Positions 10,788 through 63,200 of a stretch of 64,000 nucleotides of DNA are shown here, piece after piece. Made by a program: the position numbers and the translations under genes. The DNA lies in contig NC_089584.1 in NCBI RefSeq assembly GCF_019320115.1, forward strand, positions 79,613,922 through 79,677,921. The letters are read 5' to 3'. The notes under the pieces were generated by a model. That model made no database searches and was not told the DNA's origin. It saw only the letters and a list, made by a program, of their open reading frames with translations. Each line of letters starts with the position of its first letter. Position 1 is the stretch's first letter. The DNA comes from Miscanthus floridulus. Taxonomy: Eukaryota; Streptophyta; Magnoliopsida; Poales; Poaceae.

Positions 10788-11080
10788 GAAAAATACTATT
10801 CGATGCGAACGGGCTGTTTGTTTGTGCCAAAAGTCGGTAGTAGGCTGGCACGAATACTTCTCGCCCACTGATGGTGACAACTATACGAGCTCTACTCCGT
10901 AGCTCAAAATCTGCCGCCGGCTCGTTTACATCCAGTCTTTCCAAATCACCTTTAGGGCTGCGATAAGGCTGCCTGTAACCCCATTCCAGTCATTCTGTCG
11001 AGTAATGGAACTGCGTACGTGTAAAGTTTGGATGGTTGTAAAATAGGTCACGGCGTCTTGCAAAGTTTGGATGATTAGCA

Positions 11081-11196
11081 CTCAATGCATCCCAAATTAT
11101 AAGACAGTTTATGCACATAAATATATGCTAAGTCTAGACATATACTAAAAACAATATATCTAAAAAGAACAAAACGTCTTATAATTTGGTACGGAG
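11081..11196. mobile_element. Stowaway-like MITE
   Basis: The arms CCCAAATTATAAGACAGTTT and AAAACGTCTTATAATTTGGTACGGAG form a long imperfect inverted repeat. ACGGAG followed by TA at the right end is the Stowaway signature (TA plus CTCCGT). The left terminus is eroded (CTCAATGCAT). Length is about 116 bp and non-coding. Confidence 0.65.
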
Positions 11197-12202: not shown

Positions 12203-14294
<2,092 letters not shown>

Positions 14295-25210: not shown

Positions 25211-25215
25211 CCATG

Positions 25216-29277: not shown

Positions 29278-29898
29278 ATGGATCGCGGTAAGCGGCCATG
29301 GGAGGAGTCGTCGGAGGCCGGTGTGCTACCACCATGTCTTCAGGCTTGCCTGCATGAGCAAGGGTAAGTATTCATGTGATGTTTTAGTTTGAGGTTTGAC
29401 CTATATTGATCACACATGTTCCTAGGGCTGCCTCCCATGCCATGTCCAGAGGGGCCACAGGGGCCACTTGTGTTGTAACCCCACCCATAGGGGGTCAAGT
29501 TCATTGTCCTCATTGTCTTCTTTGGATGATCGGCGTGAGTTCTATGAGCTCACCCACATGGCGGATGAGGCCAGCCAGCGCTATTCTGACACCACCCACG
29601 AGGTGGGTTAGCTAGAGCGCTGCCTTGATGCCATCAGGGTAGCCCTCATGGCCTTAGAGAGGGAGACTGCCATCGTGCAGGTTACAGACGCTGATGCCTA
29701 GGCCCACATCGTGGGTGAGGATGCTCTTCATCTTGTCATCTTGTTCGTTGTTCGCTACCTTTGACCTTCTCACCGTCTTGTTGCCAGCGTTGGAGAAGTA
29801 GTTGGGGGCCTCCCACCATGAGACGGAGGAGGCCCGCTTCAGGGAGACTCTCCTGATGGAGGACCATGAGCGCGCGGTGGTGGCAGGAGTTCGGTAGG
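29278..29898 (+). pseudogene. antisense ORF (aORF) of the gypsy element, two exons, interrupted
   Basis: The ATG at 29278 opens MDRGKRPWEESSEAGVLPP and runs to 29363, where AGG|GTAAGT is an ideal splice donor. A plausible acceptor is CCTAG at 29421-29425. In the second exon the ancestral frame reads REFYELTHMADEASQRYSD, then a TAG, then LERCLDAIRVALMALERE, a helical segment as in known aORF proteins. The frame directly spliced from exon 1 instead ends at 29615, so a frameshift has occurred. Element C cuts the unit at 29898. The function of aORF proteins is unknown to me. Confidence 0.5.
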
Positions 29899-30906
29899 TG
29901 TAACACCCTAGGTGTTTGGCTTCCACATTTGCACTTGCATTTCATAAACATGAGCATCATTCATCCATTCATGAGCTTGGATTGTTGAAACATGCTTTTG
30001 AAACATTGCAACATATTGTTATATTCCATGTGTGTTTGTTTTATGAAATGAATAGTGTGCAACACTCAAGTGCAACATGTCCAACTCACTCTTAAAACAT
30101 GTCACATACTTTAGTGAAACATGGTTAGTTAGTACTATGCCACAAACTCATGAAACATATGAAACATAGCTTTGAAACAAAAGTAACATTTCACTTGTTC
30201 TTCCTTGTTTCGATAAATGTGATGCTTGACTTTTGTGTGATCAATGTGTGGTGTAGCTAATTATCCTCTTAAACAACTTAGCTACACTTAGAATGTCATT
30301 AGGAACAATGTTCATGTTGACCATATTGCCTAATTATGCTTTCAAGTAATGGTTTGACTTGTGTTGACCCCTAGAGCTCTTTTGTTTGACTATTTAAAAA
30401 GTATAGCTTAGAGTGTTTGCATGTCTGAGCAACCTTAAGCAAAGTTGTAGGAAATTTTATAAGGAACAAAAGTTATTTTATGACCATCTGATGAAAATTT
30501 GCAGAACATGCTCAAAAAGGGTCCACAAGTTAGTTTTGAGGTCTATTTAGAAACTCAGAAATTTTCTAAGTCTTGGAACTGATTTTCAGTTTCATGTGTT
30601 GATGTTTGGAGCCTTGTATCTCACTAACCAAGCTGAACTAGCTCTAGCTACAATTGGAAAAGTTGTAGTCCTCACCTAGATCTCCAACTTTATCAACTAT
30701 GCCATGAGCTAGATCATCATGGTTTAGGAGTTATGGAGCGAGGAACTTGCGCTGTCAGTCGGCACCGATGAACGCTGAATCAAAAATTTTAGACCGGCAT
30801 AGTGGCCGACCGGCCGCAGGCCTCTGCCACCACGTGGCTGCCACACGCCATGGCCAGCCTGGCACCACTACCCGCTGTCAACCGCAAGAGGCCGCGTCCT
30901 TCTACT
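29899..30906 (+). repeat. 5' LTR of element C, first segment
   Basis: This aligns with 60244 onward at roughly 97% by eye. It stops at CCTTCTACT where element D begins; the intact copy continues CTCCCAACTTGC. Confidence 0.88.
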
Positions 30907-33900
30907 TGTGGCAGAACCTCCTAAATTATAGGACCCACATGCACTTGTCACTGTCCAACGACCCTTGACAACTATGCATATGTTCCTGGTAACTTAAGAA
31001 GTCTATCGGGTGTCCTCGGGGAACCCCGAATCATCCACGATTTCTAAGCAGGATCACATTATAGAGTCATTGCAGTATTACAACATTTATTCAAATATAT
31101 ACATCAGAGTAAAATAGCGGAAGTCTCACGATAACTTAATTTACAAACCAGTTGTTTCAAACCTTACAAACTAAGTTCGATAATTATTACAAACCATAGT
31201 AGTAGTGGAGTGGCATAATTAACATAAACATAACACACAAAATAAGCATCCTACCCAAGGATCACACATTCACTTATCGTCATCGATAGGAACAATAGTC
31301 ATGCAACAAGGTCCAAAACAGACCTGCTCATGAGGCTCACCTGCAACAAGGGTCAACGAACCCTTAGTACAAAAGTACTCAACAAGACTTAACCGAAATA
31401 AAAACTGAGAAGACTCAGGAATGCAGGCTCAGGGGTTCAAGGTATGGCTTTAGCAATACTCAAAGTTCTTTTGCGTAAAAGCTCTTTACAAAATTTTAGT
31501 ATTTCAACATTTAAACTTCATCAGAACAATATATGAATCTCCCATGATCCGTAATGAGATCATGAACTTCATATCAAACTCTTTCTCAAATCCAGCTCCA
31601 GGTTCAGTTATTAACTACGATGATGAACAGTGAGTTTAGTCTCCATAACCGAGGAGCAACGGCAATTTGAACTGATTATTAACCCAGCTGGGGATTCCAG
31701 ACCACACGACATATGCAGGTCCCCGGCTTACATATATCAACCTACCCTTGGATCTTCTAAAACAAGAACGGGTCCACACCACCCGAGAATACAGTACTCC
31801 ACCAATCCAGCCCATTGCCATGTGGGTACACGCTATTCCCACCATCTCTCCACTCCCAGTGCGCGAGTAGCCATTCTCATAATAGAATAGCCGAGTGAAG
31901 GCTTACCGGAGTATGTGGTTAGTACTACAAAGTCTCATCTCATGCAATTCAACAACGGACAGACCTTAATCGACATAGGCGGAAAGAAGCCGCTCACACG
32001 ACCTCCATGTCTTGTGGCTCTCACACACTGAGTCCGTCCGGTCTAGATTTATTACTTCCCATGCTCATATCTCATGATAACATAAGTAACCAAAAATTCA
32101 TTTAAAACTCTCAGGTGACAGGTAATGACCTGACTAAGCATGACTAAGCATAACTAGACATTTACGAATAAAACAGGTAATCAAGGTAGATATGGAAAAA
32201 CAATGTTGGTGATGCACCAATTAGGTTTCCACTTGACTCCTAATCACTTAATGCAGTATATAAAAGCAAAAGCGATAAAATTTGTAAAACATAAGGTAGG
32301 GTTAAATGCATTCGGGGCTTGCCTTCGTTGACGGAAAAGTTAGGTTCCTGCGACGTTCCACAAGTATCCGATCCGACCTCAACAGACGGATTAACCTCCT
32401 CCGCAACTTGATTAACTACCACGTGTTCACCTTCGTTCACTACACGTAGTAACAATGCCATGTTTAACATGATGCGGAATACGAAACATGATGCGTGATG
32501 ATGGATGTAAAATTAACAATTCGAATACAACTTTCCTTCGCGGTACAGTTGTAAGTCAAACGAACTAAATCTTTTTCGTAACACATACATCAATTGCCAA
32601 TGATCATTATCAACTAATGACCCAAGGTCATCACTCAATCCAAAATTTTAAACAAAACCTAAATCATTAAAGGTTACTATTTACTTTTATGAATTAATTA
32701 TTTAATTCAAAATTATGAAATAAATCAACTTATTCTAATTGAGCTCAAAATTTTTGTAAATGTTCATCACATGAAAACTAAGTGGAAAAACAATTTTCAT
32801 AATTTTTGGATAAAGGATTAAGCCTAGAAAAATTATGAAAACTTATTTATTAATTAATTGAGCAATTTTGATCACATTCAAAAAGTATTGAAAAACAATA
32901 TTTCATATTTTTACTAAATAGTATTCATCATAGAGAGGTCACACAAAATGTTTTATAATTTTTAGAGCTCTAAATAAATCTACATAAAAATAACAAATTA
33001 CAACACTATTCATTCAAATCTGAAAAACAGAAAATTCATTTTGAATGCTGAGTCACTGACAAGGTGACCCCACATGTCATCTTCAACCTCTAGCTTTGAC
33101 CACGATGGCAACGGCGCTGACCGACGAAAACTCGCCGACGGTGAGACCAACGGCGACGGCCAAAGTACCAAAACACTCCCCACACCACCCTGCATCGCTT
33201 GAAGGCACTAGCTTGAGCAATTTTAGCGAGTTACGAGCTTGACATCGGCCATGGCGGACGCGGTGGCTCAGCGATGCCACATCGGCGAAACAAGGCCGGT
33301 AGAGTGTAAACAAAAGGCACGGGAAGGTTCAGCAGCTCACCACGAACACGTTGGAGCAAAGAGCGAGACCGGAGAAGCAACGGTGACGCGGGTCGATGTT
33401 CACAGCGACCACGGTGGAGCAAACCTCAGTGACGGCGGTGCTCAGGCAACTGTGATGGACAAAATGAGCAATCAACTGGTCATAGAGCATCTCAGGAACA
33501 AGGCAAAGCTAGAGGTGCACTAAGCAAGAGCAAAGGCTCACCGAAGAGTGCTGGCCACGACGGCGCAAGCACGACGAAGAGGTTGCCGGCCGCGAGGAAG
33601 AAGGGTTCGCACCGCGGGTTCCTGGCGAAATCAGGTGACCACAGTTGGATGGCTAGGCGTGCAAGGAGTAGGCGAAGCTATTGAGTGCTTCGCTGCGATG
33701 GGGAAGGCACTACAGCGACGGCGCGAGGTCACCGGAGTTGAGCAAGGGCGACGGGAAAAGCAGAGCAACGAAAGGAAGAACGGCGACGTCGTCTGAGCTT
33801 TATAGAGCAGCCAAGAGAGCAAGGAGACAACACGCAGTGGCCTTCTCCGTGTCTGGAACCGAGCAGAAGGACGCCGGCGGTGGGGCGGTGGTCGTGGTAC

Positions 33901-34452
33901 TATTCCACATAATTACAGAATTGCCATTTGTTTTAAAATCCAAATTACTCCCAAATTTGTATAACAACTCAAAAATCTCCAAAAATAAAAGTTGCTCAGA
34001 ATTCAAAGTTCTACAACTTTGCTTTTATAACCATCCCCTAATTCGGTCTACATTTTGAAATGAAATTTTGAATCCAAATAGGGGACATTTAACGAATTAC
34101 GCCTTTTCAAATTACTTCAAATTTTTCATAACAACTTTGAAAACTCCAAAAACAAACTTTGTATAACTTGTCAAGCTCTACACTTTTTCTTTTAGGCTCA
34201 ACCCCAAAATGTGCTTAGATTTTGAAATGAGTTTTCAGGGCAGGATTTAAACACTGAAAATCAGGGTTTTCTAAAAAATTAAAAATCCAAACAAACTTTG
34301 AACTTGATTCAAACAATACAATTCAACACATACCACATAAATGTAAACTTGTTTTAGTGAATGCATAACAAAGTTCTCACCAAGGCCAAATGCTTTGCAA
34401 TGCATATGATGACATGTCCTGTTTTAGGTTTTAAAACACCAGGGGTGTTACA
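30907..34452 (-). repeat. 3' LTR of element D (3546 bp)
   Basis: The plus strand begins TGTGGCAGAACCTCC and ends CACCAGGGGTGTTACA. The minus-strand polypurine tract TTTTAGGGGGAAGGAT abuts it at 34453-34468. A GC-rich block (33060-33880) produces spurious ORFs on both strands. Compared with the other copy it lacks about 33 bp, present there near 46507-46541. Confidence 0.88.
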
Positions 34453-34614: not shown

Positions 34615-37600
34615 CTATAATGACGCAAGAAACTCTAGAAATTTTTCTAACAAGTAATCTTCGGATTCCCAAGTAGCTTCTTCTTCGAAATGTTGATTCC
34701 ATTGTATCTTGTAGAACTTGATTGTCCTCCTTCGAGTAACACAATCTTTCTGATCCAGAACTCGGATAGGATATTCAAAATAGGTCAAATTAGGTTCAAG
34801 TTCTACTCCTTCAACCTCAACATTCTACTCAGGCACTCGAAGACACTTCTTCAATTGAGAAACATGGAACACATAATGTACAGCTAAAAGATGTTCGGGT
34901 AGCTTCAAGCGATATGCCACTTTTCCATACCTCTCTAAAATTTGAAATGGCCTAATATATCGAGGTGACAACTTGCCTTTAACACCAAAATGAGTAACTC
35001 CCTTCATTGGTGATACCTTCAGATATACAAAATCTCCCTTGTTAAACACCAATGGTCTACGTCGTTTATCTGCATAACTCTTTTGTCGGGACTGAGCTAT
35101 CTTCAAATTACTTTGTATTTGCCTAACCTTGTCTTCTGTTTCTTTCACAAGGTCAACTCCAAAGAATCTTTTTCCCCGGGCTCAGACCAACTCAGTGATG
35201 TTCTGCATCTACGACCATAGAGTGCTTCAAATGGAGCCATTCTAATGCTCTCCTGATAACTATTATTGTATGAGAACTCAGCCAAAGGCAGACATTCGTC
35301 CCACTTCTTAGAATAGTTAAGGACATAACACCTTAACATATCTTCAAGTACTTGATTGACCCTTTCAGTCTGACCATTAGTTTGTGGATGATAAGCTATA
35401 CTATATAGTAGTTTGGTACCTAACAAAGTATGCAAGTGTTTCCGAAAGCTGGAGACAAACTGTGTACCCTGGTCTGACACTATGGTCTTTGGTACTCCAT
35501 GTAGACTCATGATTCTTGCTAAGTACATCTTGGCATATTGGATAGTAGGATATATACTCTTGACTGGAAGAAAATGTGCTAATTTAGTTAGTCGATCTAC
35601 AATGACCCATATTGAATCAAAACCTTTTGATGTCTTGGGTAGACCAACAATAAAGTCCATACTAATATCCTCCCACTTCCAAGCTGGGATAGGTAATGGC
35701 TGTAACTCTCCAGCAGACCTCAAATGTATAGCTTTCACCTTTTGACAAGTATCACACTTGGCTATATATCGGGCAATTTCTATCTTCATTTTGGTCCACC
35801 AAAACCTTTGTTTCAAGTCATGGTACATCTTATTACTTTCCGGATGAATAGATAGCCTAGTAGCATGTGCTTCTTCAAGAATTGACTGTCGCAACTCAGA
35901 AACCTTTGGTACCACTAAGTGATCCTTGAACCATAACACACCTTCATCATCTATTTTGAAGCATTCCGCTTTCCCATTCTTGATTCTTTCTTTGATATGG
36001 GCTATACCCTTGTTTTCTTTCTGAGCAGCAATAATCTGGTCTCGAATAGTGGCTTCAATAGTTATATTGGTCAAACTACCTTGTTGAATTACCTCTATAC
36101 TCAACTTTTCCATCTCTTGGCATAAAGTCAAACCCATTGTTCTTACTGTCAGACAATTGCAATGGCTCTTTCGACTGAGGGCATCTGCAACTACATTTGC
36201 TTTACCAGGATGGTAATGTACTTCCAAGTCATAATCCTTAATCAATTCTAATCATCTTCTCTATCGCATGTTCAAATCCGATTGAGTAAAGATATACTTT
36301 AAACTCTTGTGATCTGTGTAAATATGGCACGTATTACCAAGCAAGTAATGCCGCCAAATCTTCAGAGCATGAACAACTGCTGCTAACTCTAAATCATGAG
36401 TGGGATAGTGCTCTTCATGTTGCTTGAGTTGTCTAGAAGCATAGGCAATGACTCGGCCTTCTTGCATCAATACACATCCAATGCCAATACCCGAAGCATC
36501 ACAATAAATGTCAAATGACTTCTCAAATCAGGTTGGGCTAATACTGGTGCAATGGTTAACAGTCTCTTCAAAGTCTGGAAAGCTTCTTCACATTCAGATG
36601 ACCAGACAAACTTGGCTTGGTTCTTCAACAACCCAGTGATGGACTTGGATACTCTAGAGAAATCTAGAATAAAACAACGGTAATACCCCGCCATTCCTAG
36701 AAAACTCCGAACCTGATGAACAGTGGTTGGTGGTTTCCAATCAAGCACATCCTTAACTTTGCTCAGATCAATAGCAACTCCTTTAGCTGATAAGACATGT
36801 CCAAGAAACTGTACTTCCTTAAGCCAGAAGTCACTCTTACTGAATTTGGCATATAATTGATGTTCTCTTAAGCGGGTCAGGACAATTCTGAGATGTTCTG
36901 TGTGTTCCTTCTTGTTCTTGGAATAAACTAGGATGTCATCAATAAACACCACCACAAACTTGTCTAGCTCAGGCATGAACACTAAATTCATCAGATACAT
37001 GAAATGAGCTGGGGCATTTGTCAAACCAAAAGACATTACTAAGTATTCATATAATCCATATCTTGTGGTAAATGCCGTTTTGGGAATATCTTCAGGCTTA
37101 ATCTTGATTTGGTGATAGCCTGACCTCAAATCAATCTTGGAGAAAACTTTAGCTCCGGCCAGTTGATAAAAAAGCAAGTCTATCTGAGGTAAGGGATACT
37201 TATTCTTAATGGTCACTTCATTCAACGGACGATAGTCAACACATAACCTCAGGGTCTCATCTTTCTTTTTTACAAAAATTGCAGGGCATCCCCAAGATGA
37301 TGAACTAGGTTGAATAAATCCTTTCTCAATCAACTCTTGCAACTGAGTCTTCAACTCGGCTAATTCCTTAGGAGGCATCCTATAAGCTCTCCAAGAGATC
37401 GGAGCTGTTCCAGGTTTTAACTCTATGTTAAACTGAACATCCCTATCTGGTGGTAGACCGGGTAAATCCTCAGGAAAAACATCAGAGAATTCACAAACTA
37501 CCAGGATATCTCTAATCTCCTTGACAAAAGTTGCACAAACTCTTTCCACTGATCTCCTTAAGGTTGGAAGTTGGATAAGAAGCTGAGAACTACTATCAGG

Positions 37601-39103
37601 CAAACTCACCCTTAATGTCCTATGCAAAGCATCTATAACAGCCTTATGCTGATACATCCAATTCATTCCCAAGATCACATCTATATCTTGATCCTTGAGA
37701 ATAATCATGGTAGTGGGAAAAATATGCCCACCCAGGTTTATGGGTACCTGGTATACCATTTCCTTAGTACACATACATCCCCCGGGCAACTGTATAAAGA
37801 AACTTTCCTTTGTTTCCCCAATTAGAATTGCATGCTTTACGACAAAGGTTCTATTGATGAATGAATGAGATGCACTAGAATAAAAAAGCATAACAGCAGG
37901 GTGATCGGCGACAGGAAACATACCCATCATCACTAGCCCCCCTTCCGGAATTTCTCCAGCTTGAATATAGAACACCCGTCCTGTCTTCCTTTCATCTTTG
38001 CCCTTCTGAGCATTCTGATTATGGTTCTTGTTCTGTGCTTGACCCTGTTGTTGATTGGCAGGGGCCTTCTGATAATTTTGATTAGCCTGCTTGGGATACA
38101 GATATTCCCTAGAGAAATGACTAGTCCTTCCACAATTGTAACATGGATAATTGTGACCCTGGGACGTTGGAGCATTGCCACCAGGAGCATTTGTCTATTG
38201 GGAATTCGGGTAGGTTATAGCAGGACAGACATTTGACTGTTGCCCGGCTTGGAACTGCGGTAGACGATAAGGAGGACGATAATGGTTGACTGGATGATAG
38301 ATTATCTTTTGCCTCTTTTGATTTCCACCAAAAGATCCAGATGGCACACTCTTCTTTTTCTTGATCTCCTTATGCTGCCGATACTTTTCCTCAGAAGCAA
38401 TTGCAATATTCACTGCCTCATGATAAGTAACATTGGCACATGCAGTCATCATTGTCTGTAATTTGGTATTCAGTCCCCTCATGAACCATTTCTTTTTCTT
38501 AGCATATGTATTGACATGTTCAGATGCATACTGTGACAGGTGATTTAATCTACCCACATATTGCATAACCGTTTGATCCCCTTGCTTCAAAGCAAGGAAC
38601 TCATCCAGCTTCATGGCCATCACTCCTTCTAGAATATAATGAGCTCTGAAGGTAGTATGGAACTTAGCCCAAGTTATTGGAATGCCAGCTGGTTGCATAG
38701 CCACTAGATTTGCCCACCAGGCACCTGCTGCACCTCTAAGTTGCTGAGCAGCAAACATAGGTTTCTGCATCTCTGTGCATGGAATAAGATCAAATTTCTG
38801 CTCCATGGTTCGAAGCCAATCATCAGCCTCTAGTGGTTCATCTGCCTTAGTGAACACTGGGGGTCTTGTATCTGTAAAATCAACATACATAGCCTCCTGC
38901 CTATTATAATTGCGGCCACGGTTTCCTTTCACCATATTCTGATTACTCTGAGCTATCTCTCGAAGCAATCGAGCATTTTCTACGGTCACATGAACCAGTG
39001 CTACTATAGCATCAGCTAAAGTTGGCGGAACTGGTGGTGGATCAGGAACACCACCCTCTTCATGCGAAGAACCAGGAATATCCGAAGCACGAGTACGAGG
39101 CAT
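34615..39103 (-). pseudogene. gag-pol polyprotein of element D
   Basis: Starts MPRTRASDIPGSSHEEGG at 39103. Gag (to about 38195) has the core WLRTMEQKFDLIPCTE and AAQQLRGAAGAWW. A single TAG at 38195 separates it from the zinc knuckle [14 protein letters not shown], whose last Cys is Tyr. The protease site reads [11 protein letters not shown], with catalytic Asp replaced by Tyr. RT keeps [13 protein letters not shown] frameshift near 36520 leads into RNase H ([13 protein letters not shown]); two stops occur near 36250. Integrase has the HHCC finger (IHPESNKMYHDL, CDTCQKV) and its catalytic residues in MDFIVGLPK, IVSDQGTQF and QTERVNQVLE. A frameshift near 35155 precedes GDFVYLKVSPMKG. A TAG at 34825 precedes the chromodomain-like end YPIRVLDQKDCVTRRRTIKF to 34615. 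Confidence 0.85.
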
Positions 39104-39203
39104 CTGTTCATAATAAACCAAACTTTACTCACAAGCTTTTATTGAGATATAAAAGTGCTCAGTACAAGCACATTACATTAGGTTTACTTATTTAAGCACA
39201 AGC

Positions 39204-42200
39204 TGTAACACCCCAAAATTTGCCACTTTTAAAAATAGAGTTAAAAGGATTTAATTTGGAATATTTGTGTGCATGAAACATAGGAAAATGAAAATTTTCA
39301 TTAATTTAAAATTTATCATAGGGTAGAAACGTGTTTGTTGCATTCATGCCGGTCGCACCTCGTGTTTCTATGTGCAAAATATGTGTTTTTTATACGTTTA
39401 GGAGATGAATATCTATCTCTAGGAATTTTTTTTGCTTCTTTCTAAAATTTAATTCCTACCTCCTTCACCTTAATATTTATGTTCCAAGTTTCCAACAATA
39501 TTTTTATGAGCTCCTAATACTTTATTTGGGTTCATCATGTTCCAAAGTGTCTCCGGGAATTTTCCCCAAATTTTCGGAGGTCTCGGAGTATTTTTCGTGG
39601 CTTAAATATTAATTCTGGACTTTTCTAGAATTATTTTATCCATGAAATTAATTAATTCCGAAAATAATAAATCTCTCATTTATCCCAACGCTCAAAGCCC
39701 ATGTGCAATAATCCTAATAAATTCTAAAGGCCCATGCATTTATTTACTAATGGGCTTTAATGATTATTTAGGCCTATTAGTAAACGTGGAGGGTGCAACA
39801 TCAATTAGTACCATATCGCTAGTTGACGTGGATGTGGAGAGTTTTTCTTCCTATATATATCAACCAATCCCTTGGGCAAAGCATACCAAAACTACCATAT
39901 GGGGATCCCCGAGCGCATCCACAGGAACCCTCTCTATCTTATTCCCTGTCGCATGAACCCAGATTTTGGCTTGAAACTTCTGTTTGTTTCGCTGCAGACG
40001 TGTTGCCCGTGGATATCTGTTCTGTCCATGGGGCCGGCAACCTTCCTGCTCCACAGCCCCGGGAGCCTCAGCAGCATAGCTGCCGTCCAACCCCCTGCTC
40101 CAGCAGCAGCGTCGATCGGCCACGAAGTTCAGCCAGCAAAGACTCTGCGTTCTTTTCTTCTTCATGCTTGTAAGATCGATCAAATCCACATGTGCCACGT
40201 CTGATCAGCACAGAACTCCAACCAAAATCACCGTTGCATGTGAGTTTCTATCACTTTGTATTTTAGGTCCCTCTTTCTTTGTAATCGATTCATTGTTCTT
40301 CGTGTCTCTTGGAGGTTACAATCTGACATGCATCTGTTGAGCTCCTATACGATCATCAGCTGTTGCCGTGTGCCCTGCTCCAGTTAGCTGTTCCAATTAG
40401 CTTGATGACATCACATGACATCACGTATATGTTTTATGGCCGTTTTCTTATAGAAAAACAAATCCAACAATACTATAGAAATACACCACTTACAATCAAT
40501 AATGGATCCCCACCGTTTCTTCGTTCTAACTCTGATTTGATCCGTTCAACTTGCGTTAGGTTCGTAATTTCATAATCTACATGTTCATACTACTATTATA
40601 TATGTTTTCAACTTTTCAAATTCGAGATTAGATTTAATCTATTACTTTAATGAAGGAAATCTTGTTTATTTCATATCTTCTGCGTTTTAGATCCGTTTAA
40701 GCCCATTCCAGTTGTGTCAGATTCATAGCGACGAGATTTACGCGTTAGTAGCAATGTTTACAATATTACTACTTCTGAAATTTCATCATTTAAATCATAT
40801 CTTGATTAACAATTATGCAACTAGGTTTTATAAATAAAATATGATTTGTTTTACTTTAATATTATAATTCAAACTTAAATTTGACTTAATTTATATTACC
40901 TATAAAATATCTTACATATGTTTTTATATAATTAAAACACATGAAGCTAATAGTCTTATGAGTAGATCTCTCGGTAGTTGTATCTTTTCAATCGTAGCTT
41001 CGATTAGTGTGCTTTCGCGTCTGTGTGTTCGTAGTAAGACATAGATTCATTTTATAAACTTTTCATCTCGATTTTATGTTTGGTGTACTGTTCTAATTTA
41101 GATCTATTGTTTGCTTCGTGTATGATTGCATAGATGCTTGTGTGGTGCTTTATGATTTCATCCAGTCGATGAGATATACGTGGTGATCAAGAAGAAAAAG
41201 AAGAAGAACGTTGAAGATTAAAGCTTACCGAAGGATCGGTATTTTAAGGCAAGTATAGCATGGGACCATCCTTGTTACCTATTCACCTTTAATCATTTAA
41301 TTCATACTTGCATGTGTCTACCTTGACTGCCATTAAGGAATTCCTAGTACTTTGTACCTTGTACCTTGATACCTATGGGGTATTGCATTGGGTAGTATGA
41401 TGCTAGTGCTCAGTTAAAGACCATGATCTTGTAACTTGTCTAATGGAATATGCAATAAACATTAAAAGATACTTTCTAGCAACATGGAACAAGGGGGCTA
41501 GAGCATTGGGCTGTTTTATGGCTCTCTAGATTCCTCTCCCTAAGGACTTATCTGTAAGTGATCATCCGGGACTTACAGTACAGCTGTGAGGGCTATATGG
41601 CTCTGGCTTTAGCTCAGTATGAGGACCTTTTCTAGCTTGTTAGTGGTTACCTTTATGGCGCAAGAGGGGTGTGTTCCGGGTTGGATATAGTGCGGCCTCT
41701 GTCCGTCAGTGTATAGGCTGTGCGTCATTGTGCCTGTCGGAAGGGGAGCTCTACATTCGTAGGCCACAGAAACCTAGCGGCCCTAACTTGTTAGACGAAC
41801 CTTTGAAAGGCTTCATAGTGAACCCTGCCGACCTTCCTTGGTAGTGGGTCAAGAGGCTGATCACCTCGGGCGAAAGGGTAAATCACGACTCACAGTGAAA
41901 GTGTACAACCTCTGCAGAGTGTAAAACTGGTATATCGGCCGTGCTCACGGTCACGAGCGGCCTTGGAACATTTATGGAATAGATGATGAACACAGATGAT
42001 ACTGATAATGAAGATGCTCACTAATGGTTAATTGTTTATGCTATTCATTATTCATGTTTACCTGATCATGTGTTTATATGGGCTTGTGATAAACTTGTTG
42101 CTACTCCATTGATAAAAGATGACTCATTAAAAGCTAATCGCAGTTAAACCAGTGTCAACCTTTTGAGCCTCATGAACCCCATGTTATATCTGTTGAGTAC

Positions 42201-42514
42201 GACATGTACTTACGCTTGCTTTATTTTCAATTATTTGGATAAAAATCCCGGATGGGTACCAGATTGCTAGAGTTTGGAGGAATTAGGCTTGTGATCAACC
42301 AGTCAGTTGTCCCTGTGGATTTGGAGTCTTCGCTTGAAGATCGGAGTTGTCTTTACGCTGTCTATACTCTGAGGTTATATTCTTTATACTAATACGTTAT
42401 GTATTTAAGTATTGTCTATTGATATTACCCTTATTTGTAGCTATATGTGAGATTTGACTTCCTGGGCTCACATATGGTGTGTATCTGGTTTTGTTCTTAA
42501 AACCGGGTGCGACA
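39204..42514 (+). mobile_element. solo LTR inside element D (3311 bp)
   Basis: It starts TGTAACACCCCAAAATTTGC and ends AAAACCGGGTGCGACA, with CAAGC duplicated on both sides (39199-39203 and 42515-42519). No second LTR or coding interior is present, so it is a solo LTR from recombination. Orientation is plus by comparison of late-LTR text (GTTGAGTACGACATGTAC) with element C. A TATA-like CTATATATAT lies at 39851-39860. Short ORFs around 39642-40204 are not supported as genes. Confidence 0.8.
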
Positions 42515-42591
42515 CAAGCCCACACCTAAACAAGACTACTTAACTTAACTAGATCTCCTATTTTACAACTCTACTCTTCTCCTCGACCACA

Positions 42592-43164
42592 TCAAACCTC
42601 ATGATCGGTATCCATTCCAGAAACATTTCCGCCTTCATTATCACTTTCATCAACCATCACTAATTCTTCTGGATCTTCTTCTTCCTCCTCCTCTTCAAGT
42701 TCATCGTCATCAGCAATGATGACACCAGGGTCCATTGCATCAGCTTGAGGTTCATGGTTTGGATCCAGGAGGTTGCTCAGCCTATGGACTTCTTCATGCG
42801 AAGTAGTATTATGTTCTTCTAAATCTTCTACATAAAATTCTAGCTCATGCGCTCTAGCTCTAGCTACATCCTCCCTATGCCAAGCCTCATTTCTCCCTTC
42901 CACCATACGAACTAACATACGCTCGTAGTTCTTATGAGCGGTGGTGCTACACTTCAATTGATCTTTTAACTTGCCTAGCCGGATGGTATCCAAGGCTCTA
43001 TCCCTAGTAGCCTATGCTAACTCTATTGAAAGCCTCTATATCTCTGCCTAGAGATCAGGCCTAGAGCTGCTACTGCTAGCACCGTCATTTCTAGGGGCAA
43101 GTTGGTGACGAGGAACTCCTTTAGGTCCAACAGACTTACGGGGCGTTACCTTGGTGCGAGCCAT
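42592..43164 (-). pseudogene. extra ORF (ORF0) of element D with histone H3 tail-like N-terminus
   Basis: The ATG at 43164-43162 opens MARTKVTPRKSVGPKG, then VPRHQLAPRND. Against mature histone H3 this matches ARTK(1-4), T6, R8-K9-S10, G12 and K14. After a one-residue insertion it also matches P16-R17, Q19-L20-A21, giving 15 of 21 identities. A Ser-rich linker follows (GASSSSSRPD), then three in-frame TAG codons at likely Gln positions, then a charged, probably helical segment (DTIRLGKLKDQLK to HELEFYVEDLEEHN). The end is very acidic (DDDELEEEEEEEDPEE, then a Ser/Asp/Gly tail), for 190 codons in all. The ORF lies 398 bp inside the 5' LTR and upstream of gag. The related ORF of element C shares the acidic end but not the H3-like start. 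Histone capture or convergent mimicry are both possible. The copy itself is not translatable without reading the TAGs. Confidence 0.7.
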
Positions 43165-43566
43165 ACTGTAGGAAGCAAGATTAATCCAATTAAGGCAATT
43201 TGATCAAAATCTAAAGAGCAGCCAGGATGGATTACATAACTCAACCCAAACTCACTACCCAACCCAGACTCAGGGTGAAGGAAGTAATAAGTGAATTAAT
43301 AATGATGCATGAATCGTTCTTATGAATAAAAACATCAAGGCTTATATGGTACAAAACCACAGTTATTTTTATATAGGGCATAATAAGATTACTACTCCAC
43401 CACACAAACCCTTTTTAATCAATTAAGGAATGGTGAGAATGAAATAAGATAAGCCAAAACCAATTTGGACCAAATTAACAAGTTATATCTATTTGTCCCA
43501 AATCATTTTGAAGTTTTTGTAAAACAATACAACAAAGACTTTGTAACGATCGCTCTGATACCATTC
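43165..43566 (-). other. element D leader and primer-binding site
   Basis: The minus strand reads TGGTATCAGAGCG at 43563-43551, a perfect initiator-Met tRNA primer site, three bases inside the LTR. About 390 bp of non-coding leader separates it from the ORF0 start codon. Confidence 0.8.
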
Positions 43567-46500
43567 TGTGGCAGAACCTCCTAAATTATAGGACCCACAT
43601 GCACTTGTCACTGTCCAACGACCCTTGACAACTATGCATATGTTCCTGGCAACTTAAGAAGTCTATCGGGTGTCCTCGGGGAACCTCGAATCATCCACGA
43701 TTTCTGAGCAGGATCACATTATAGAGTCATTGCAGTATTACAACATTTATTCAAATATATACATAGAGTAAAATAGCGGAAGTCTTACGATAACTTAATT
43801 TACAAACCAGTTGTTTCAAACCTTACAAACTAAGTTCGATAATTATTACAAACCATAGTAGTAGTGGAGTGGTATAATTAACATAAACATAACACACAAA
43901 ATAAGCATCCTGCCCAAGGATCACACATTCACTTATCGTCATCGACAGGAACAACAGTCATGCAACAAGGTCCAAAACAGACCTGCTCATGAGGCTCACC
44001 TACAACAAGGGTCAATGAACCCTGAGTACAAAGGTACTCAACAAGACTTAACCAAAATAAAAACTGAGAAGACTCAGGAATGCAGGCTCAGGGGTTCAAG
44101 GTATGGCTTTAGCAATACTCAAAGTTCTTTTGCGTAAAAGCTCTTTACAAAATTTTAGTATTTCAACATTTAAACTTCATTAGAACAATATATGAATCTG
44201 CCATGATCTGTAATGAGATCATGAACTTCATATCAAACTCTTTCTCAAATCTAGCTCTAGTTTCAGTTATTAACTACGATGATGAACATTGAGTTGACTC
44301 TCCATAACCGAGGAGCAACGACAATTTGAACCGATTATTAACCCAGCTGGGGATTCTAGACCACACGACATATGCAGGTCCCTGACTTACATATATCAAC
44401 CTACCCTCAGATCTTCTAAAACAAGAACGGGTCCACGCCACCCGAGAATACAGTACTCCACCAATCCAGCCCATTGCCACGTGGGTACACGCTATTCCCG
44501 CCATCTCTCCACTCCTAGTGCGCGAGTAGCCATTCTCGTAATAGAATAGCCGAGTGAAGGCTTACCAGAGTATGTGGTTAGTACTACAAAGTCTCATCTC
44601 ATGCAATTCAACAACGGACGGACCTTAATCGACACAGGCGGAAAGAAGCCGCTCACAAGACCTCCATGTCTTGTGGCTCTCACACACCGAGTCCACCCGG
44701 TCTAGATTTATTACTTCCCATGCTCATATCTCATGATAACATAAGTAACCAAAGATCCATTTAAAACTCTCAAGTGATAGGTAATCACCCGACTAAGCAT
44801 GACTAAGCATAACTAGACATTTACGAATAAAACAGGTAATCAAGGTAGATATGGAAAAACAAAGTTGGTGATGCACCAATTAGGTTTCCACTTGACTCCT
44901 AATCACTTAATGCAGTATATAAAAGCAAAAGCGATAAAATTTGTAAAACACAAGGTAGGGTTAAATGCATCCGGGGCTTGCCTTCGTTGACGGAAAAGTT
45001 AGGTTCCTGCGATGTTCCACAAGTATCCGATCCGACCTCAACAGACGCATTAACCTCCTCCGTAACTTGATTAACTACCATGTGTTCACCTTTGTTCACT
45101 ACACGTAGTAACAATGCCATGTTTAACATGATGCGGAATACGAAACATGATGCGTGATGATGGATGTAAAATTAACAATTCGAATACAACTTTCCTTCGC
45201 GGTACAATTGTAAGTCAAACGAACTAAATCTTTTTCGTAACACATACATCAATTGCCAATGATCATTATCAACTAATGACCCAAGGTCATCACTCAATCC
45301 AAAATTTCAAACAAATCCTAAATCATTAAAGGTTACTATTTACTTTTATGAATTAATTATTTAATTCAAAATTATGAAATAAATCAAATTATTCTAATTG
45401 AGCTTAAAATTTTTATAAATGTTCATCACATGAAAACTAAGTGGAAAAACAATTTTCATAATTTTTGGATAAAGGATTAAGCCTAGAAAAATTATGAAAA
45501 CTTATTTATTAATTAATTGAGCAATTTTTATAACATTCAAAAATTACTGAAAAACAATATTTCATATTTTTCCTAAATTGTATTCATCACAGAGAGGTCA
45601 CACAAAAATGTTCATAATTTTTGGAGCTCTAAATAAATCTACACAAAAATAATAAATTACAACACTATTCATTCAAATCTGAAAAACAGAAAATTCATTT
45701 TGAACGCTGAGTCACTGACAAGGTGACCCACATGTCATCTTCAACCTCTAGCTTTGACCACGACGGCGACGGCGCTGACCGATGAAAACTCACCGACGGT
45801 GAGACCAACGGCGACTGCCAAATACCAAAACACTCCCCACACCACCTCGCATCGCTTGAAGGCACTAGCTTGAGCAATTTTAGAGAGTTACGAGCTTGGC
45901 GTCGGCCATGGCGGACGCGGCAGCTCGGCAATGCCACACCAGCGAAACAAGGCCGGTAGAGTGTAAACAGAAGGCACGGGAAGGTTCAGCAGCTCACCAC
46001 GAACACGTTGGAGCAAAGAGCGAGACCGAAGAAGCAACGGTGACGCGGGTCGACGTTCACAGCGGCCATGGCGGAGCAAACCTCGGTGACAGCGGTGCTC
46101 AGGCGATTGTGATGGACAAAATGAGCAATCAACCGGTCATAGAGCATCTCGGGAACAAGGCGGAGCTAGAGGTGCACTGAGCAAGAGCAAAGGCTCACCG
46201 GAGAGTGCTGACCACGACAGCGCAAGCACGACGAAGAGGTTGCCGGCCGCGAGGAAGAAGGGTTCGCACCGCGAGTTCCCGGTGAAATCAGGTGACCACA
46301 GTTGGATGGCTAGGCGCGCAAGGAGTAGGCAAAGCTATTGAGCGCTTCGCTACGACGGGGAAGGCACTATAGCGACGGCGCGAGCTCACTAGAGTTGAGC
46401 AAGGGCGACGGGAAAAGCAGAGCAACGAAAGGAAGAACGGCGACGTTGTCTGAGCTTTATAGAGCGGCCAAGAGAACAAGGAGACAACACGCAGTGGCCT

Positions 46501-47099
46501 TCTCTGCGCCAGCACGAAGCCAAGAGCGGCCACAGGCGCGTCTGGAACCAAGCAGAAGGACGCCGGCGGTGGGGCGGTGGTCGTGGTACTATTCCACATA
46601 ATTACAAAATTGCCATTCGTTTTAAAATCCAAATTACTCCCAAATTTGTATAACAACTCAAAAATCTCCAAAAATAAAAGTTGCTCAAAATTCAAAGTTG
46701 TACAACTTTTCTTTTATAACCATCCCCTAATTCGGTCTACATTTTGAAATGAAATTTTGATTCCAAATAGGGGACATTTAACGAATTACGCCTTTTCAAA
46801 TTACTTCAAATTTTTTATAACAACTTTGAAAACTCCAGAAACAAACTTTGTATAACTTGTCGAGCTCTACACTTTTGCTTTTAGGCTCAACCCCAAAATG
46901 TGCTTAGATTTTGAAATGAGTTTTCAGGGCAGGATTTAAACACTAAAAATCAGGGTTTTCTAAAAAATTAAAAATCCAAACAAACTTTGAACTTGATTCA
47001 AACAATACAATTCAACACATACCACACAAATATAAACTTGTTTTAGTGAATGCATAACAAAGTTCTCACCAAGGCCAAATGCTTTGCAATGCATATGAT
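43567..47099 (-). repeat. 5' LTR of element D, truncated at its outer end
   Basis: Matches 30907-34452 closely but stops at GCAATGCATATGAT. The final ~45 bp present in the other copy (ACATGTCCTG to GTGTTACA) are missing. It joins element C LTR sequence through a shared GAT. Confidence 0.88.
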
Positions 47100-47831: not shown

Positions 47832-49267
47832 ATGCATTAAGTATAGGAATTGGTTTGAACCAATTGTTGCATTATATATCTATCCTTGTCCAGATATCAC
47901 ACTTGAATCCTATTTAAGTTCAGGAATGGGTTAAATGCTTAGCCATGCTTAGTGCGGTAGAAGTCGGGTGATTTCCTGTCACCTGCGAGCTTTAGGATGA
48001 GGTGGATCACGGTTGGCTATATTTGTTATTATGGAAAAGAACCATGTTAATAATGAATTAAGACCGGGCGGAGTCTTGTGTAGGGTTGGACATAGTGACT
48101 CCGTCTGTGTCGTTTAAGGACCGATATGCTGTACGTCATTATGTCAGGTTGAACGTAGCCTAACATTTAGCTGGCCGGATAACTCGTTCCGACCGTGAAG
48201 CCTAGTAGCTCAATTCAGGCCAGGAATGCGAGCAGTTGGCCGCAATCTGGATGGTAGTAAGGATGTGCGAAGAGCCATTGGCGTAAGCCCAAGGGCGGGT
48301 TAAGTCACTGAGCACTCATGGCAGAGTGGTTCTCTGATTTTGCGGCACTGATCAGACCCACGACCCTTGAATTGTACCAAAGGTGACTTGTTTGCGACCC
48401 TGACGGGGGAAGCAGGGTTTGTGTTAGGAATACCCCTCTAGCTGGATAGGAATCGATTCGAATTGTCGTCTCTCCCGGATAGTGAGAACTTGACTGAGCA
48501 GCGGCAATGTAGATTCAATTAATTTAACGATATGGTTAAATGGATGATGATGATAATGTTGCCACGATTTATACCTGCTATGGTTAATAATGTTTGCATC
48601 TTACTCAAGTGATTGCTTAGTATAGGTGCTAATATAGATGACATGTTAATGGCTAAAAGTCACTGCTAGCTCAGGTTAAGAGTTGATCACTATTACTTAT
48701 GCTTTTCCGCAAAAAGAAAGTGTCAGCCAGACCCACTAAATTAAGCTATGCATGATCCTTGGTGTCAATTATTTTGGTTTCCGATGGGTAAGTCTAGCTG
48801 AGTATATTCTTGTACTCAGGGTTTATTCCCTCTTGTTGCAGATGACCTTCTTTATCAGGGCTTCTGTAAGTACTGTCTCCACCCAGCGGGTGACGAAGAC
48901 TAGATCAAGGGCATGATCTCTGTTTATCTTATCCGAATGCTTTTGTGGGATGTGATCGGCAAGCTGGTACTTGTATTTGAACTCGTGTGTGTGAGTTAAA
49001 CTATTTGCTTCCGTTACTTTACAAGACTTGGTTTGTAATAACTATGACTCTGATGTGTTGTAATCTATCTGCAAACTATTTGTGAAATGTTGTAACGTGT
49101 GATGTGTTATGTTGAATTACTATGATCTTGGTTGTATGCAAGTTGGTTTGAAATCCTTCATGGTTTTAGTTGACTACCGGATTTATATGGGCTCAAGTGC
49201 GAGAATTTGATCGTTTTGGCGATTGTTTTTGTACTGGTGCTCTTATAAATTGGTCGGTTCTGTTACA
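47832..49267 (+). repeat. 5' LTR of element C, last segment
   Basis: From ATGCATTAAGTATAGGAATT this matches the 3' LTR from 62742 to the window end. It ends CTGTTACA, the complement-matched partner of the TGTAAC start. Confidence 0.88.
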
Positions 49268-50068: not shown

Positions 50069-51133
50069 ATGGCCACGCCTGTGTTTCCTCCTTGTAGCAG
50101 CACCTTTTTGGACCAGTTTGGTACGCCTACCTTGCTCTAGAGGGTGCTAAGCTCAGTTGGGTACCCGGAGGTGCCCCGTTACACGTGGGTGCAGATGGTG
50201 CCATTTAGAGATGTGCCATGGTACAATGTGACCTTGGTGGTGCCGCAGAACCCCATGAGACCGTTGTGGCGTGGGTGGAGCACCAAGTCTGATGGGCAAA
50301 GCCCATGGGAAGCCACACAAGTTGCTGCCCTTGATGTGCTTATGGACATAGCATAGAGTTTCAAAGATGAATTAGTGGGTGAACCAGCTGCATCCATTCC
50401 CCGAGTGGCTCCTATAGATGCTAAGTGGACTCAAGAAGCTGGCTAGGCCTTGGTTCGAGGCCATGGTGAACGTGTTCAGAGCGACAATGTGGAAATGAGT
50501 GCTATGATGGCCGTCTTGAAGCTTTGCCGAGTCAGGCAGGACACCCTCTCTAGAGTGTTAGAAGAAGCTAGCAAGGCAATGGCAGCCCAACACAAGTTTA
50601 GGTTGCGTGCCCGCAAGTATTGCCGTAGGGCGGAGGCATGTGGGCAAGCTCAGCTGGAGGTAGATGAGATTTAGGGCATTGCAAATTATCGCCTACAGCA
50701 GTGGGGGCAAGAAGCACGCGAGAGAGATGAGCTTCATAACTAGCTTATGAACCTCACCATAGAGAGAGATGAGGCAGTACATGAGTTGGACCGTGTGACC
50801 CATCATAGAGATGCACCTCTGGAGTTAGCAGAAGAAAGGCGTCAATGATGGATCATGGCTAACCACAATGCTTTTCAAAGGGAGAATGAGCTCCAAGAGC
50901 AGCTAGAGGAGCTTCAGGTTGAGTACCATCAACTGAACAACCGTCTGTTTCCTATTCCTCACCCTCCACCAGTTTACCCAAATCTTGGACCTCAAGTGAT
51001 TGAGGCCGATGAAGAAGAAGAGGACATGCAGATAGATGTCAATGTAGCTAAACCTGCAGAGGAAGAGGAAGAGGAAGATCCTGAAGAAGTCCAGGGCGTT
51101 TCTGATGTGGACAGTGACCACTTCGATGAGTAG
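50069..51133 (+). pseudogene. extra ORF (ORF0) of element C
   Basis: One frame of 355 codons opens MATPVFPPCSSTFLDQFG and is interrupted by TAG at several sites and one TGA. The N-terminal part (about residues 30-95) is Trp/Pro-rich (YTWVQMVPFRDVPWYNVTLV). The middle is charged and probably coiled (RQDTLSRVLEEASKAMAAQ; RENELQEQLEELQVEYHQL). The end is acidic (VIEADEEEE, then AEEEEEEDPEEV and SDVDSDHFDE). It occupies the same position as ORF0 of element D, between LTR and gag, and shares the acidic EEEEEEDPEE(V/L) end, but has no H3-like start. I do not know its function. Confidence 0.6.
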
Positions 51134-60231: not shown

Positions 60232-60243
60232 AAGGGGGAGAGC
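60232..60243 (+). promoter_or_regulatory. polypurine tract of element C
   Basis: AAGGGGGAGAGC directly precedes the 3' LTR start TGTAACACC at 60244. Confidence 0.8.
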
Positions 60244-63200
60244 TGTAACACCCTAGGTGTTTGGCTTCCACATTTGCACTTGCATTTCATAAACATGAGC
60301 ATCATTCATCCATTCATGAGCTTGGATTGTTGAAACATGCTTTTGAAACATTGCAACATATTGTTATATTCCATGTGTGTTTGTTTTATGAAATGAATAG
60401 TGTGCAACACTCAAGTGCAACATGTCCAACTCACTCTTAAAACATATCACATACTTTAGTGAAACATGGTTAGTTAGTACTATGCCACAAACTCATGAAA
60501 CATATGAAACATGGCTTTGAAACAAAAGTAACATTTCACTTGTTCTTCCTTGTTTTGATAAATGTGATGCTTGACTTTTGTGTGATCAATGTGTGGTGTG
60601 GCTAATTATCCTCTTAAACAACTTAGCTACACTTAGAATGTCATTAGGAACAATGTTCATGTTGACCATATTGCCTAATTATGCTTTCAAGTAATGGTTT
60701 GACTTGTGTTGACACCTAGAGCTCTTTTGTTTGACTATTTAAAAAGTACAGCTTAGAGTGTTTGCATGTCTGAGCAACCTAAGCAAAGTTGTAGGAAATT
60801 TTATAAGGAACAAAAGTTATTTTATGACCATCTCTTGAAAATGTGCAGAACATGCTCAAAAAGGGCCCACAAGTCAGTTTTGAGGTCTATTTAGAAACTC
60901 AGAAATTTTCTAAGTCTTGGAACTGATTTTCAGTTTTATGTGTCGATGTTTGGAGCCTTGTATCTCACTAACTAGGCCAAACCAGCTCTAGCTACAATTG
61001 GAAAAGTTGTAGTCCTCACCTAGATCTCCAACTTTGTCAACTATGCCATGAGCTAGATCATCACGGTTTAGGAGTTATGGAGCGAGGAACTTGCGCTGTC
61101 AGTCGGCACCGATGAACGCTGAATCAAAAATTTCAGACCGGCACAGTGGCTGACCGGCCGCAGGCCTCTACTGCCATGTGGCTGCCATGTGCCATGGCCA
61201 GCCTAGCGCCACTGCCTGCTATCAACCACAAGAGGCCACGTCCTTCTGCTCTCCCAACTTGCTCTCATTCACTCTCCTCCTCTCGCTCGCGTTTGAAGCA
61301 CCAAGAAAGCGGAGCCATCGCCGTCGCCATTGCTCCGCCGAGCCGTGCACCCTCGCCGTCATGTCATTGCTCGCTCTAGCTAGCCCAAAACTCCACCGTA
61401 GTCTCCTTTAGCTCATCCACCTCACCGTTGAGCCGAAGAGTCAAGGTAGAGGCCGCATTTCCGTTCCCGCCGCTGTCCGGACCTCGCCGGAGTTGGAGCT
61501 CACCGTGGTCGACCACCACCAGAGCCCTCTCACTCCCTTTTCTACCCTCCATTAGTTTCCCCGTGAGCCCTAGAAGCTCGTACCGAGCTTAGCCGCGCCC
61601 TACATGGTCGGACCTCACCGGAGCACCGTCGGATTCCCTCCGCCATCCGCCATGCACGCCACCGTCCTAGCTCGAGCTCGGTAGCGGTTGAGGGGAGGGC
61701 ATATTTAGGTGCGTCTCATCGAGGCGAGCACGCCAGTGCCCTTGTCCTCGCCGGAGTCCTCACCATCGGTGAGCTCCATTGATCCCGCATTGTCCCCAAT
61801 TTTTCATGTCGCTGACATGCGGGCCCTCCTGTGTCGTGGACCCCGTCTGCCAGTGACCGTTAAGAAATAGGCTAGTTCATTTGTTTAGTTTTGAATGCTG
61901 TTTTGTTAAATTTATATCTCTAGTTTGGTAGATTCAAATTGGGTGGTTCCAATTTTGTTAGGATCTTGGTGAAGTGTAGTATTTAGGAAAAATATAATAT
62001 TAGCACTTGTAGTAGAGTTTCTAGAAGGATTAAATTGAAACTTGAAATGTGTTTTTAAATGGATGCAAACTTGTTTAATTCATATCTAGAGTTCCTGTGC
62101 TCCAAAAAATATGAAATTCAGATGGTGAGCTCTTCTTGATGAGTAGAAGCTCTGGTAAAAATTTTAGAATAGTGCATGAATAGTTTTTGAGTTATAGATT
62201 TTCCTTTTATCATTAGATGATCCTTGTGTGAATTTTAGTAATTAATATATAAATCCAATGACCATGAAATTTATTGGAGGATGTCCTAGTACCTTAAGGA
62301 TGCTAAGAAAAAATATAAAATCTATTGCTTAAAACTTTTCACTAGGTTTCCTATTTATGTTATTTTAAGCCTTTATGCCTTGTCATTTGTGTATAGGATG
62401 TTATACTTGTTCAACTGATGTGAAATTTTTACAGTAGCCTACTTGGAGCATGTAGTACCTACTATAATTTGTGTAGATTAAATGGTGTAGTTTTCATATA
62501 TGTTGATTATTCCTCTTAAATAATTAAATATATGTTGATTATTGGAGTGATGCTTCTGGAGTTCGAGGGAGCGAGCTAGGAGGAGGAGCCCGAGGTTCAG
62601 GCAATCGATGAAGCAGCCACCGAGGAGGAGTTGCCCGAGTGCCCTGACCACCGCCCATCCTCTTTCCTAAAAGGCAAGTCCCGGAGCATTCTAAGTCTCC
62701 CATGTTTTTACAAATATCTTGAGTATCTTTTATTGTTGATGATGCATTAAGTATAGGAATTGGTTGGAACCAATTGTTGCATTATATATCTATCCTTGTC
62801 CAGGTATCGCACTTGAATCCTATTTAAGTTCAGGAACGGGTTAAATGCTTAGCCATGCTTAGTGCGGTAGAAGTCGGGTGATTTCCTGTCACCTGTGAGC
62901 TTTAGGATGAGGTGGATCACGGTTGGCTATATTTGCTATCGTGGAAAAGAACCATGTTAATAATGAATTAAGACCCGGCGGAGTCTTGTGTAGGGTTGGA
63001 CATAGTGACTCCATCTGTGTCGTTTAAGGACCGATACATTGTACGTCCTTATGTCATGTTGAACGCAGCCTAACATTTAGCTGGCCGGATAACTCGTTCC
63101 GACCGCGAAGCCTAGTAGCTCGATTCAGGCCGAGAACATGAGAAGTTGGTCGCAATCTAGATGACAGTAAGGATATGCGGAGAGCCATTGGCATAAGCCC

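Follow-up and report, generated by a model that had tools for sequence, protein, structure and literature searches.

A histone H3-tail-like N-terminus in the ORF0 of grass chromoviruses: likely capture of an H3 exon and a possible silencing decoy

Element D and its ORF0

The window (i.e., the whole stretch of 64,000 nucleotides of Miscanthus floridulus DNA that was analysed) contains an LTR retrotransposon on the minus strand, here called element D, whose features are listed in Table 1.

Table 1. Features of element D and of its ORF0, with positions in the window
Feature	Position	Strand	Remark
5' LTR of element D	43567..47099	-	outermost bases seem lost
Primer-binding site TGGTATCAGAGC	43552..43563	-	-399 (~400 nt) from ORF0 ATG
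Splice-acceptor-like stretch TTCCTACAG/T, adjoining ORF0 ATG	43165..43176	-	CAGT in 48/57 genome copies
H3-tail-like block, ORF0 codons 1-25, MARTKVTPRKSVGPKGVPRHQLAPR	43090..43164	-	conserved in divergent ORF0s
K4-equivalent lysine codon	43150..43152	-	K in 50/51 ORF0 N-termini, 12/12 chosen ORF0s
K9-equivalent lysine codon	43135..43137	-	K in 50/51 ORF0 N-termini, 12/12 chosen ORF0s
Ser-rich linker, ORF0 codons 26-38	43051..43089	-	low-confidence, without regular structure to ~residue 35 (P0016 model)
Long helical segment, ~codons 39-133	42766..43050	-	single helix 36-131 in P0016 AlphaFold2 model
Acidic C-terminal region and stop codon of ORF0	42592..42765	-	low-confidence, without regular structure in P0016 model
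~3.3 kb beyond expectation between ORF0 and gag	39104..42591	.	from gag spacing in relatives
gag	38195..39103	-	Pfam Retrotrans_gag E 6.3e-18
Protease and reverse transcriptase	36467..37930	-	Pfam RVT_1 E 3.8e-34, RVP_2 E 9.8e-26
Integrase	35145..36137	-	Pfam Integrase_H2C2 E 4.6e-18; rve E 6.2e-5, below cut-off
Chromodomain	34615..34824	-	Pfam Chromo E 2.6e-5, 24.5 bits, just under cut-off 25.1
3' LTR of element D	30907..34415	-	outer end placed by eye

The two LTRs differ by a K2P distance of 0.044 over 3,243 aligned sites, which would correspond to an age of ~1.7 My if a rate of 1.3e-8 is assumed, and we take the primer-binding site to be of the initiator-Met tRNA type. The chromodomain contains, by eye, the sequence EEATWESE, which fits the motif EEXTWEXE given for Tekay chromodomains (PMC3350952). 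This motif and a chromodomain positioned C-terminally on the integrase are features of Tekay-type chromoviruses, and a separate ORF before gag and LTRs of ~3 kb or more are features of the grass elements that carry an ORF0; element D has all of these.

The first-pass annotation of this DNA had placed an ORF upstream of gag in element D. This ORF is indeed in place, although additional DNA of ~3.3 kb lies between it and gag: in relatives with a recognised gag start, gag begins 727-754 nt past the ORF0 ATG, and the excess in element D is likely a secondary insertion. A gag match was obtained by tblastn in 29 of the 30 loci that carry young copies of this ORF0 in the host genome (see below), the exception being L016. 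The same annotation described an open frame of 190 codons, in which the H3-like start is followed by a Ser-rich linker, a helical segment and an acidic end. The window copy is not open: codons 39, 43 and 51 are in-frame stops, so that a protein of 190 residues cannot come from it and the helix and the acidic end lie beyond the stops. Stop-free copies do exist (29 of the 30 young ones read). The ORF0 of the window is, therefore, a decayed copy in a chromodomain-bearing LTR retrotransposon.

ORF0 is known from Retrosat2, RIRE3, RIRE8 and grass relatives without an accepted function, and the authors who described it inferred enzyme functions from homology models (PMC3485330, as far as its available text goes). 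Compared by description, the ORF0 studied here is like that of Retrosat2, RIRE3, RIRE8 and FRetro3 in that it lies as an additional ORF behind the 5' LTR and ahead of gag, in an element with LTRs >3 kb in a grass host, and encodes a fast-evolving protein; unlike our analysis, the main text of that paper mentions no resemblance to H3, the word "histone" being absent from it (PMC3485330). Among the open-access literature matches listed, judged by title and start of the abstract, there was no report of histone mimicry by a retrotransposon or other transposable element, of an ORF0 with H3, or of H3 capture. Thus, ORF0 is known but its H3-like start apparently is not.

Similarity of the ORF0 start to the histone H3 tail

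The minus-strand sequence from position 43164 reads MARTKVTPRKSVGPKGVPRHQLAPRND, and the translation of 43164-43066 is MARTKVTPRKSVGPKGVPRHQLAPRNDGASSSS. The claim that this frame opens like the mature H3 tail is borne out: with one inserted residue and in register from residue 2, 15 out of 21 positions agree. The Smith-Waterman score of the ORF0 start against the H3 tail is 63; when the 38-residue start was shuffled 20,000 times with its composition preserved, no shuffle reached this value (Gumbel p 1.7e-5). Among the 2,701 ATG-started 38-mers of the window, with stops read as X, the runner-up scored 32 (mean 15.0, sd 4.1). With the same 38 residues as query, phmmer matched 109 sequences among PDB chains, and the best 60 of these are all either Cse4 or H3, including variants and peptides of H3, although with a best E of 0.026 this single-sequence match is weak taken alone. 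A chance resemblance of a basic N-terminus would be compatible with such a weak match and with a stretch that is both short and basic, but we consider it very improbable and rejected it on the basis of the shuffles and of the distance to the runner-up in the window; the existence of relatives whose start is more H3-like than that of the window copy and the coincidence of the end of the block with an exon edge (both discussed below) also argue against it.

The frame is not a histone gene or pseudogene, an identity that was considered and rejected. Of histone H3 it has the N-terminal tail, for residues 1-25 only and imperfectly, and no histone fold was found: three ORF0 relatives gave no histone Pfam match and the AlphaFold2 model of the relative P0016 is a single long helix. 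Weak Pfam matches of ORF0 (Bestrophin_2, ATG16, MIC19 and others) were also discarded, as all are below the cut-offs and resemble coiled-coil matches.

Conservation of the start between divergent ORF0s

With the window ORF0 as query 283 proteins were retrieved and with a profile 333, many among the 120 matches listed per search being short pieces that begin at an inner Met. When residues 1-45 of P0016 served as query, 31 proteins were obtained from 32 candidates and the N-terminal block was present in all 31. By a pattern that requires part of the second half of the block, it occurs in 51 of 159 proteins; the per-residue counts cover these 51, with the other 108 outside the count. Besides the two lysines equivalent to K4 and K9 (Table 1), T6 is retained in 48 of the 51 N-termini, K14 in 42, R2 in 39, R8 in 38 and S10 in 32, with changes of R2 and R8 mostly to H or C.

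Residues were also compared in 12 chosen ORF0s, which are a subset of the 51 and some of which are related to each other. K4, T6, K9 and T11 are present in all 12, R2 in 11 and R8 in 10, whereas K14 is found in only nine, A7 in four and S10 in two; positions 5, 7 and 10 (Q, A and S in H3) are variable. The first-pass annotation had stressed that the main modifiable residues of H3 are kept, and this can be maintained for K4 and K9 but not for S10 and K14. Its caveat that A7 is Pro applies to part of the family and is not family-wide. The commonest residue is shared by 12/12 at positions 24-25 and by 6 and 5 of 12 at positions 26-27, and two serines of the linker reach 10/12. Some relatives, P0152 and P0156, start with MARTKQTARK, i.e., with exactly ARTKQTARK after the Met, and resemble H3 more than the window copy does; the start of P0158 is ARTKITARKSTG. 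A profile of the 12 N-termini gave 135 matches in the PDB (best E 1.5e-7), the best 60 of which are H3, H3 peptides, Cse4 or H3-CENP-A chimaeras. The ORF0s also depart from H3 in ways that are nearly fixed (P13, the inserted residue, H18, P22 and R23), which argues that any mimicry would be limited to about residues 1-12.

For eight divergent ORF0s, the mean identity over the 28 pairs is 85% in the first 25 residues and 29% in the aligned body, although six of the eight came from the search seeded with the N-terminus and the sample is, therefore, biased towards conserved N-termini. These comparisons indicate that the first 25 residues are H3-tail-like in the relatives found and far better conserved than the rest of the protein between divergent ORF0s. 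Homologues that lack the H3-like positions would have spoken against the resemblance noted in the window copy; instead, the H3-like start is a feature of the family and its best conserved part between divergent members. A scan of viral contigs gave 10 pattern matches, among them no confirmed relative.

ORF0 copies in the host genome

A search of the host genome with the middle of ORF0, in which the start was ignored, identified 30 loci, including the window copy (L031) and four near-identical neighbours (L043-L046). The start was recognised in 27 of the 30 older loci (not in L033, L035 and L053), in one of them, L042, followed by a frame change. These 27 older copies are mostly decayed: only four are stop-free, 26 retain K4 and all 27 retain K9 but only nine R8, and the raw ratio of non-synonymous to synonymous variants is 1.1-1.7 across four segments, as expected for dead copies. 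In a second group of 30 young copies (L001-L030), several of them near-identical, 29 are without a stop and the raw ratio is 0.33-0.58. K4, T6, R8 and K9 are retained in all 30 young copies; T3 is changed to A in 28 of them and Q5 to M in all.

When the two host subfamilies are compared with each other, codons 1-25 have a pN/pS of 0.56, from 5.5 non-synonymous and 3.5 synonymous changes. The corresponding value is 0.00 for the linker, where the only two changes are synonymous, 0.19 for the coil and 0.21 for the acidic end. These values rest on few changes, and one change in the start, at R8, stems from the decayed older copies. ORF0 is, thus, under coding constraint, with a pN/pS of ~0.2 in the coil and acidic end and nearly all young copies stop-free. 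Stronger constraint on the start than on the linker or body was, however, not found between these two subfamilies. Conservation suggestive of selection on the H3-like motif is seen between divergent ORF0s, in a sample partly seeded with the N-terminus, and is not above that of linker and body between the host subfamilies; at this level the idea that the H3-like positions are specially constrained relative to the linker is not supported.

A different possibility is that the tail, captured from H3 or merely resembling it, was kept only as a basic tail for nuclear import or for binding RNA or DNA, without mimicry for readers. The H3 tail is itself an import signal and the ORF0 block is basic. That S10, K14 and position 5 are not strictly kept, that T3 is lost in young copies, that the host copies show no better conservation of the start than of the rest, and that H18 and R23 preserve the character of the charge rather than the identity of the residue all agree with such a role. 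For a generic basic tail, however, there would be no need to keep K4, T6, K9 and T11 in 12/12 while positions 5, 7 and 10 are free, or to hold the exact H3 register starting at residue 2. We regard this explanation as unlikely, yet as the likeliest alternative to a reader-binding tail.

Origin of the H3-like block

A search for H3 in the host genome gave 97 matches, of which 12 places were examined. Nine of these (L076-L084) are intron-split H3 genes, selected for a match that begins at residue 1 and is interrupted at residue 25-32; ten matches in all run from residue 1 to a point short of residue 40, and the one beyond these nine has a stop. In all nine the first coding exon, with introns read from the genomic sequence and not from transcripts, ends after codon 24 (...QLATK, then GT), whereas three intronless H3 genes read through past this codon. 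The end of the ORF0 block, after codon 25 with one codon inserted, coincides with the end of this exon. The block has the same 24-codon span as the first coding exon of the intron-split host genes, and in the eight divergent ORF0s 13-17 of the 23 residues after the Met are identical to it. Unlike host H3, ORF0 has no histone fold after the block, and it differs in the inserted residue and the near-fixed P13, H18, P22 and R23.

Agreement at the level of codons is high for some of these genes and not for others. Between the young copy L001 and the H3 gene L081, 12 of 15 codons for the same residue are identical where 5.4 are expected (p 1e-4), and the agreement is 11/15 with L082 (p 1e-3) and 9/15 with L077 (p 0.025); the expectation is derived from the codon usage of the ORF0 body and all p-values are before correction for the 11 genes compared, L079 being left out as it is nearly the same as L078. 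With the five other intron-split genes L001 shares 6-8 of 15 codons (p 0.08-0.19), and with the three intronless genes 3-4 of 15 (p 0.39 or more). Another young copy, L027, agrees with L081 in 12 of 16 codons (p 4e-4 before correction), and the best agreement of the window copy is 9/15, also with L081 (p 0.03 before correction). The mean agreement with L081 is 0.78 for the 30 young and 0.64 for the 27 older copies, against 0.20-0.36 with the intronless genes. Among the intron-split H3 genes the agreement is, however, prominent only for L081 and L082, and weakly so for L077. Similarity between the 40 nt upstream of ORF0 and the H3 introns was sought and rejected (lowest p 0.17 of 10 comparisons).

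Capture of an H3 exon is, on this comparison of sequences, the likely though not proven origin of the ORF0 start. An ancestral element would have picked up the initial coding exon of an intron-split H3 gene, gained one codon, and joined the exon to a coiled-coil and acidic protein.

Possible function as a reader-binding tail

AlphaFold2, run on eight sequences with P0016 first, predicted a low-confidence arm (residues 1-35), a confident helix (36-131) and a low-confidence acidic end, with a mean pLDDT of 74.9 and a pTM of 0.38 for P0016. Upon removal of the Met, ORF0 would expose A-R-T-K-x-T-x-R-K-x-T-G on the flexible arm of a helical rod, and this arm may be a ligand of host readers or writers of H3K4 and H3K9. 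The likeliest role would be that of a decoy for silencing readers of K4me0/K9me2 (AGDP1/ADCP1, SHH1) or for PHD proteins that read K4me0 (e.g., ZMP), as a result of which the silencing of an expressed element would be delayed. We give a little less than an even chance to the reading that a captured H3 exon was kept as a reader-binding tail, most probably as a silencing decoy. The fuller account, in which an ancestral plant chromovirus took the first coding exon of H3 and the tail has since been competing with chromatin for the K4me0/K9me2 silencing readers, is put forward more tentatively.

AGDP1 contacts A1, R2, K4, R8 and K9me2 of H3, has no specific contact to T3, Q5, T6 and S10 and takes up A7 in a shallow pocket; the bound peptide has a helical form and is shaped by intramolecular bonds of R2, T3, T6 and R8 (PMC6208443). 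ADCP1 contacts R2, K4 and K9me2 but not A7, R8 and S10 (PMC6318295). SHH1 and ZMP are H3-tail readers in the recruitment of Pol IV, both for H3K4me0 and SHH1 also for H3K9me2 (PMC9699677). The division between residues that are kept and residues that vary in ORF0 appears close to the contact set of AGDP1 and fits it, a correspondence that was noticed in hindsight, and much of the set is common to other H3 readers as well. A real objection to reading of the AGDP1 type is that residue 7 is Pro in the ORF0s of the host lineages, which should disturb the helical form of the peptide seen with AGDP1. Also the change of T3 to A in most young copies, and the lack of an H3-like start in those copies of a second element in the window that were read, speak against mimicry.

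The presence of a chromodomain in element D allows for a ligand closer at hand: the ORF0 tail could bind the chromodomain of the element's own integrase, either as a link within the pre-integration complex or to regulate targeting by competing with the H3 of chromatin. Group II chromodomains (e.g., Tekay) have lost essential residues and, according to the available text, a factor interacting with them in plants has not been found (PMC3350952), which would leave room for such a partner. Yet homologous elements in the five non-grass genomes searched in another study are reported to be without an ORF0 (PMC3485330), and the second element of the window has an ORF0-like acidic end without an H3-like start in the copies read, so that we judge this option to be rather improbable. 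PHD domains usually contact a free N-terminus together with R2-T3-K4, and the tail might also serve as bait that brings a chromatin factor (a PHD protein, a remodeller or an H3 methyltransferase or demethylase) to the RNA, the particle or the insertion site of the element. The binding of H3 1-18 by the PHD domain of ZMP (PMC9699677) would fit recruitment, but the support is no more specific for bait than for a decoy and the young subfamily alters T3; recruitment seems to us less probable still than binding to the element's own chromodomain.

Parasite proteins that are not histones but carry an H3-tail motif are known from viruses, i.e., ARSK in influenza NS1, ARKS in SARS-CoV-2 ORF8 and AKKRS in adenovirus protein VII (PMC10208167). 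These viral mimics are motifs of a few residues whose binding or modification has been studied, whereas ORF0 has a register-true N-terminal block of ~24 positions that is shared by a family and likely has a host exon as its source. If a silencing decoy is indeed what the tail is, ORF0 would be an anti-silencing protein encoded by the element and built from the very histone tail by which the element is marked for silencing. Binding of readers by ORF0 would mean that abundant plant retrotransposons carry a histone tail of their own, that they have a concrete route to meeting RNA-directed DNA methylation and H3K9me2 silencing, and that histone mimicry can arise by exon capture and not by convergence on a short motif. 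The H3 tail at its start makes the function of the ORF0 of grass chromoviruses directly addressable with peptides and known readers.

Possible splicing before the ORF0 ATG

The sequence CAGT directly precedes the ORF0 ATG in 48 of 57 genome copies, and 5-12 upstream ATGs lie between the primer-binding site and ORF0. In a scan for donors in five copies, CAG/GTGAGC was found ~840 nt upstream in L001, L003 and L013; the window copy has TAG/GTGAGC, and L037 has none at that place. Candidate splicing into TTCCTACAG/T would, as an idea suggested by the sequence, take out the upstream ATGs. The acceptor-like stretch is also compatible, by eye and at the protein level only, with eight ORF0 relatives that are extended upstream.

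Other features of the window

A second element with long LTRs has an ORF0-like frame at 50201-51133 (+), with in-frame stops and an acidic end of the same kind (EEEEEDPEEV). An H3-like start is absent from this frame in the window and in the related copies read, and the notion that every ORF0 of the window has such a start was, therefore, rejected. Element D appears to be nested in the 5' LTR of a plus-strand element; the repeat pieces that flank it (29896-30735 and 47832-49071) match a far LTR at 60241-63982 (60.2-64.0 kb). At 8453-14118, repeats that are 83-85% identical and ~3.8 kb apart extend over a frame (9757-10224, minus strand) that resembles an aldo-keto reductase by eye and may be a duplicated host gene, perhaps broken. 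Finally, 16092-17869 and 23432-25211 form a pair of direct repeats (87-92%) that are possibly the LTRs of a further element.
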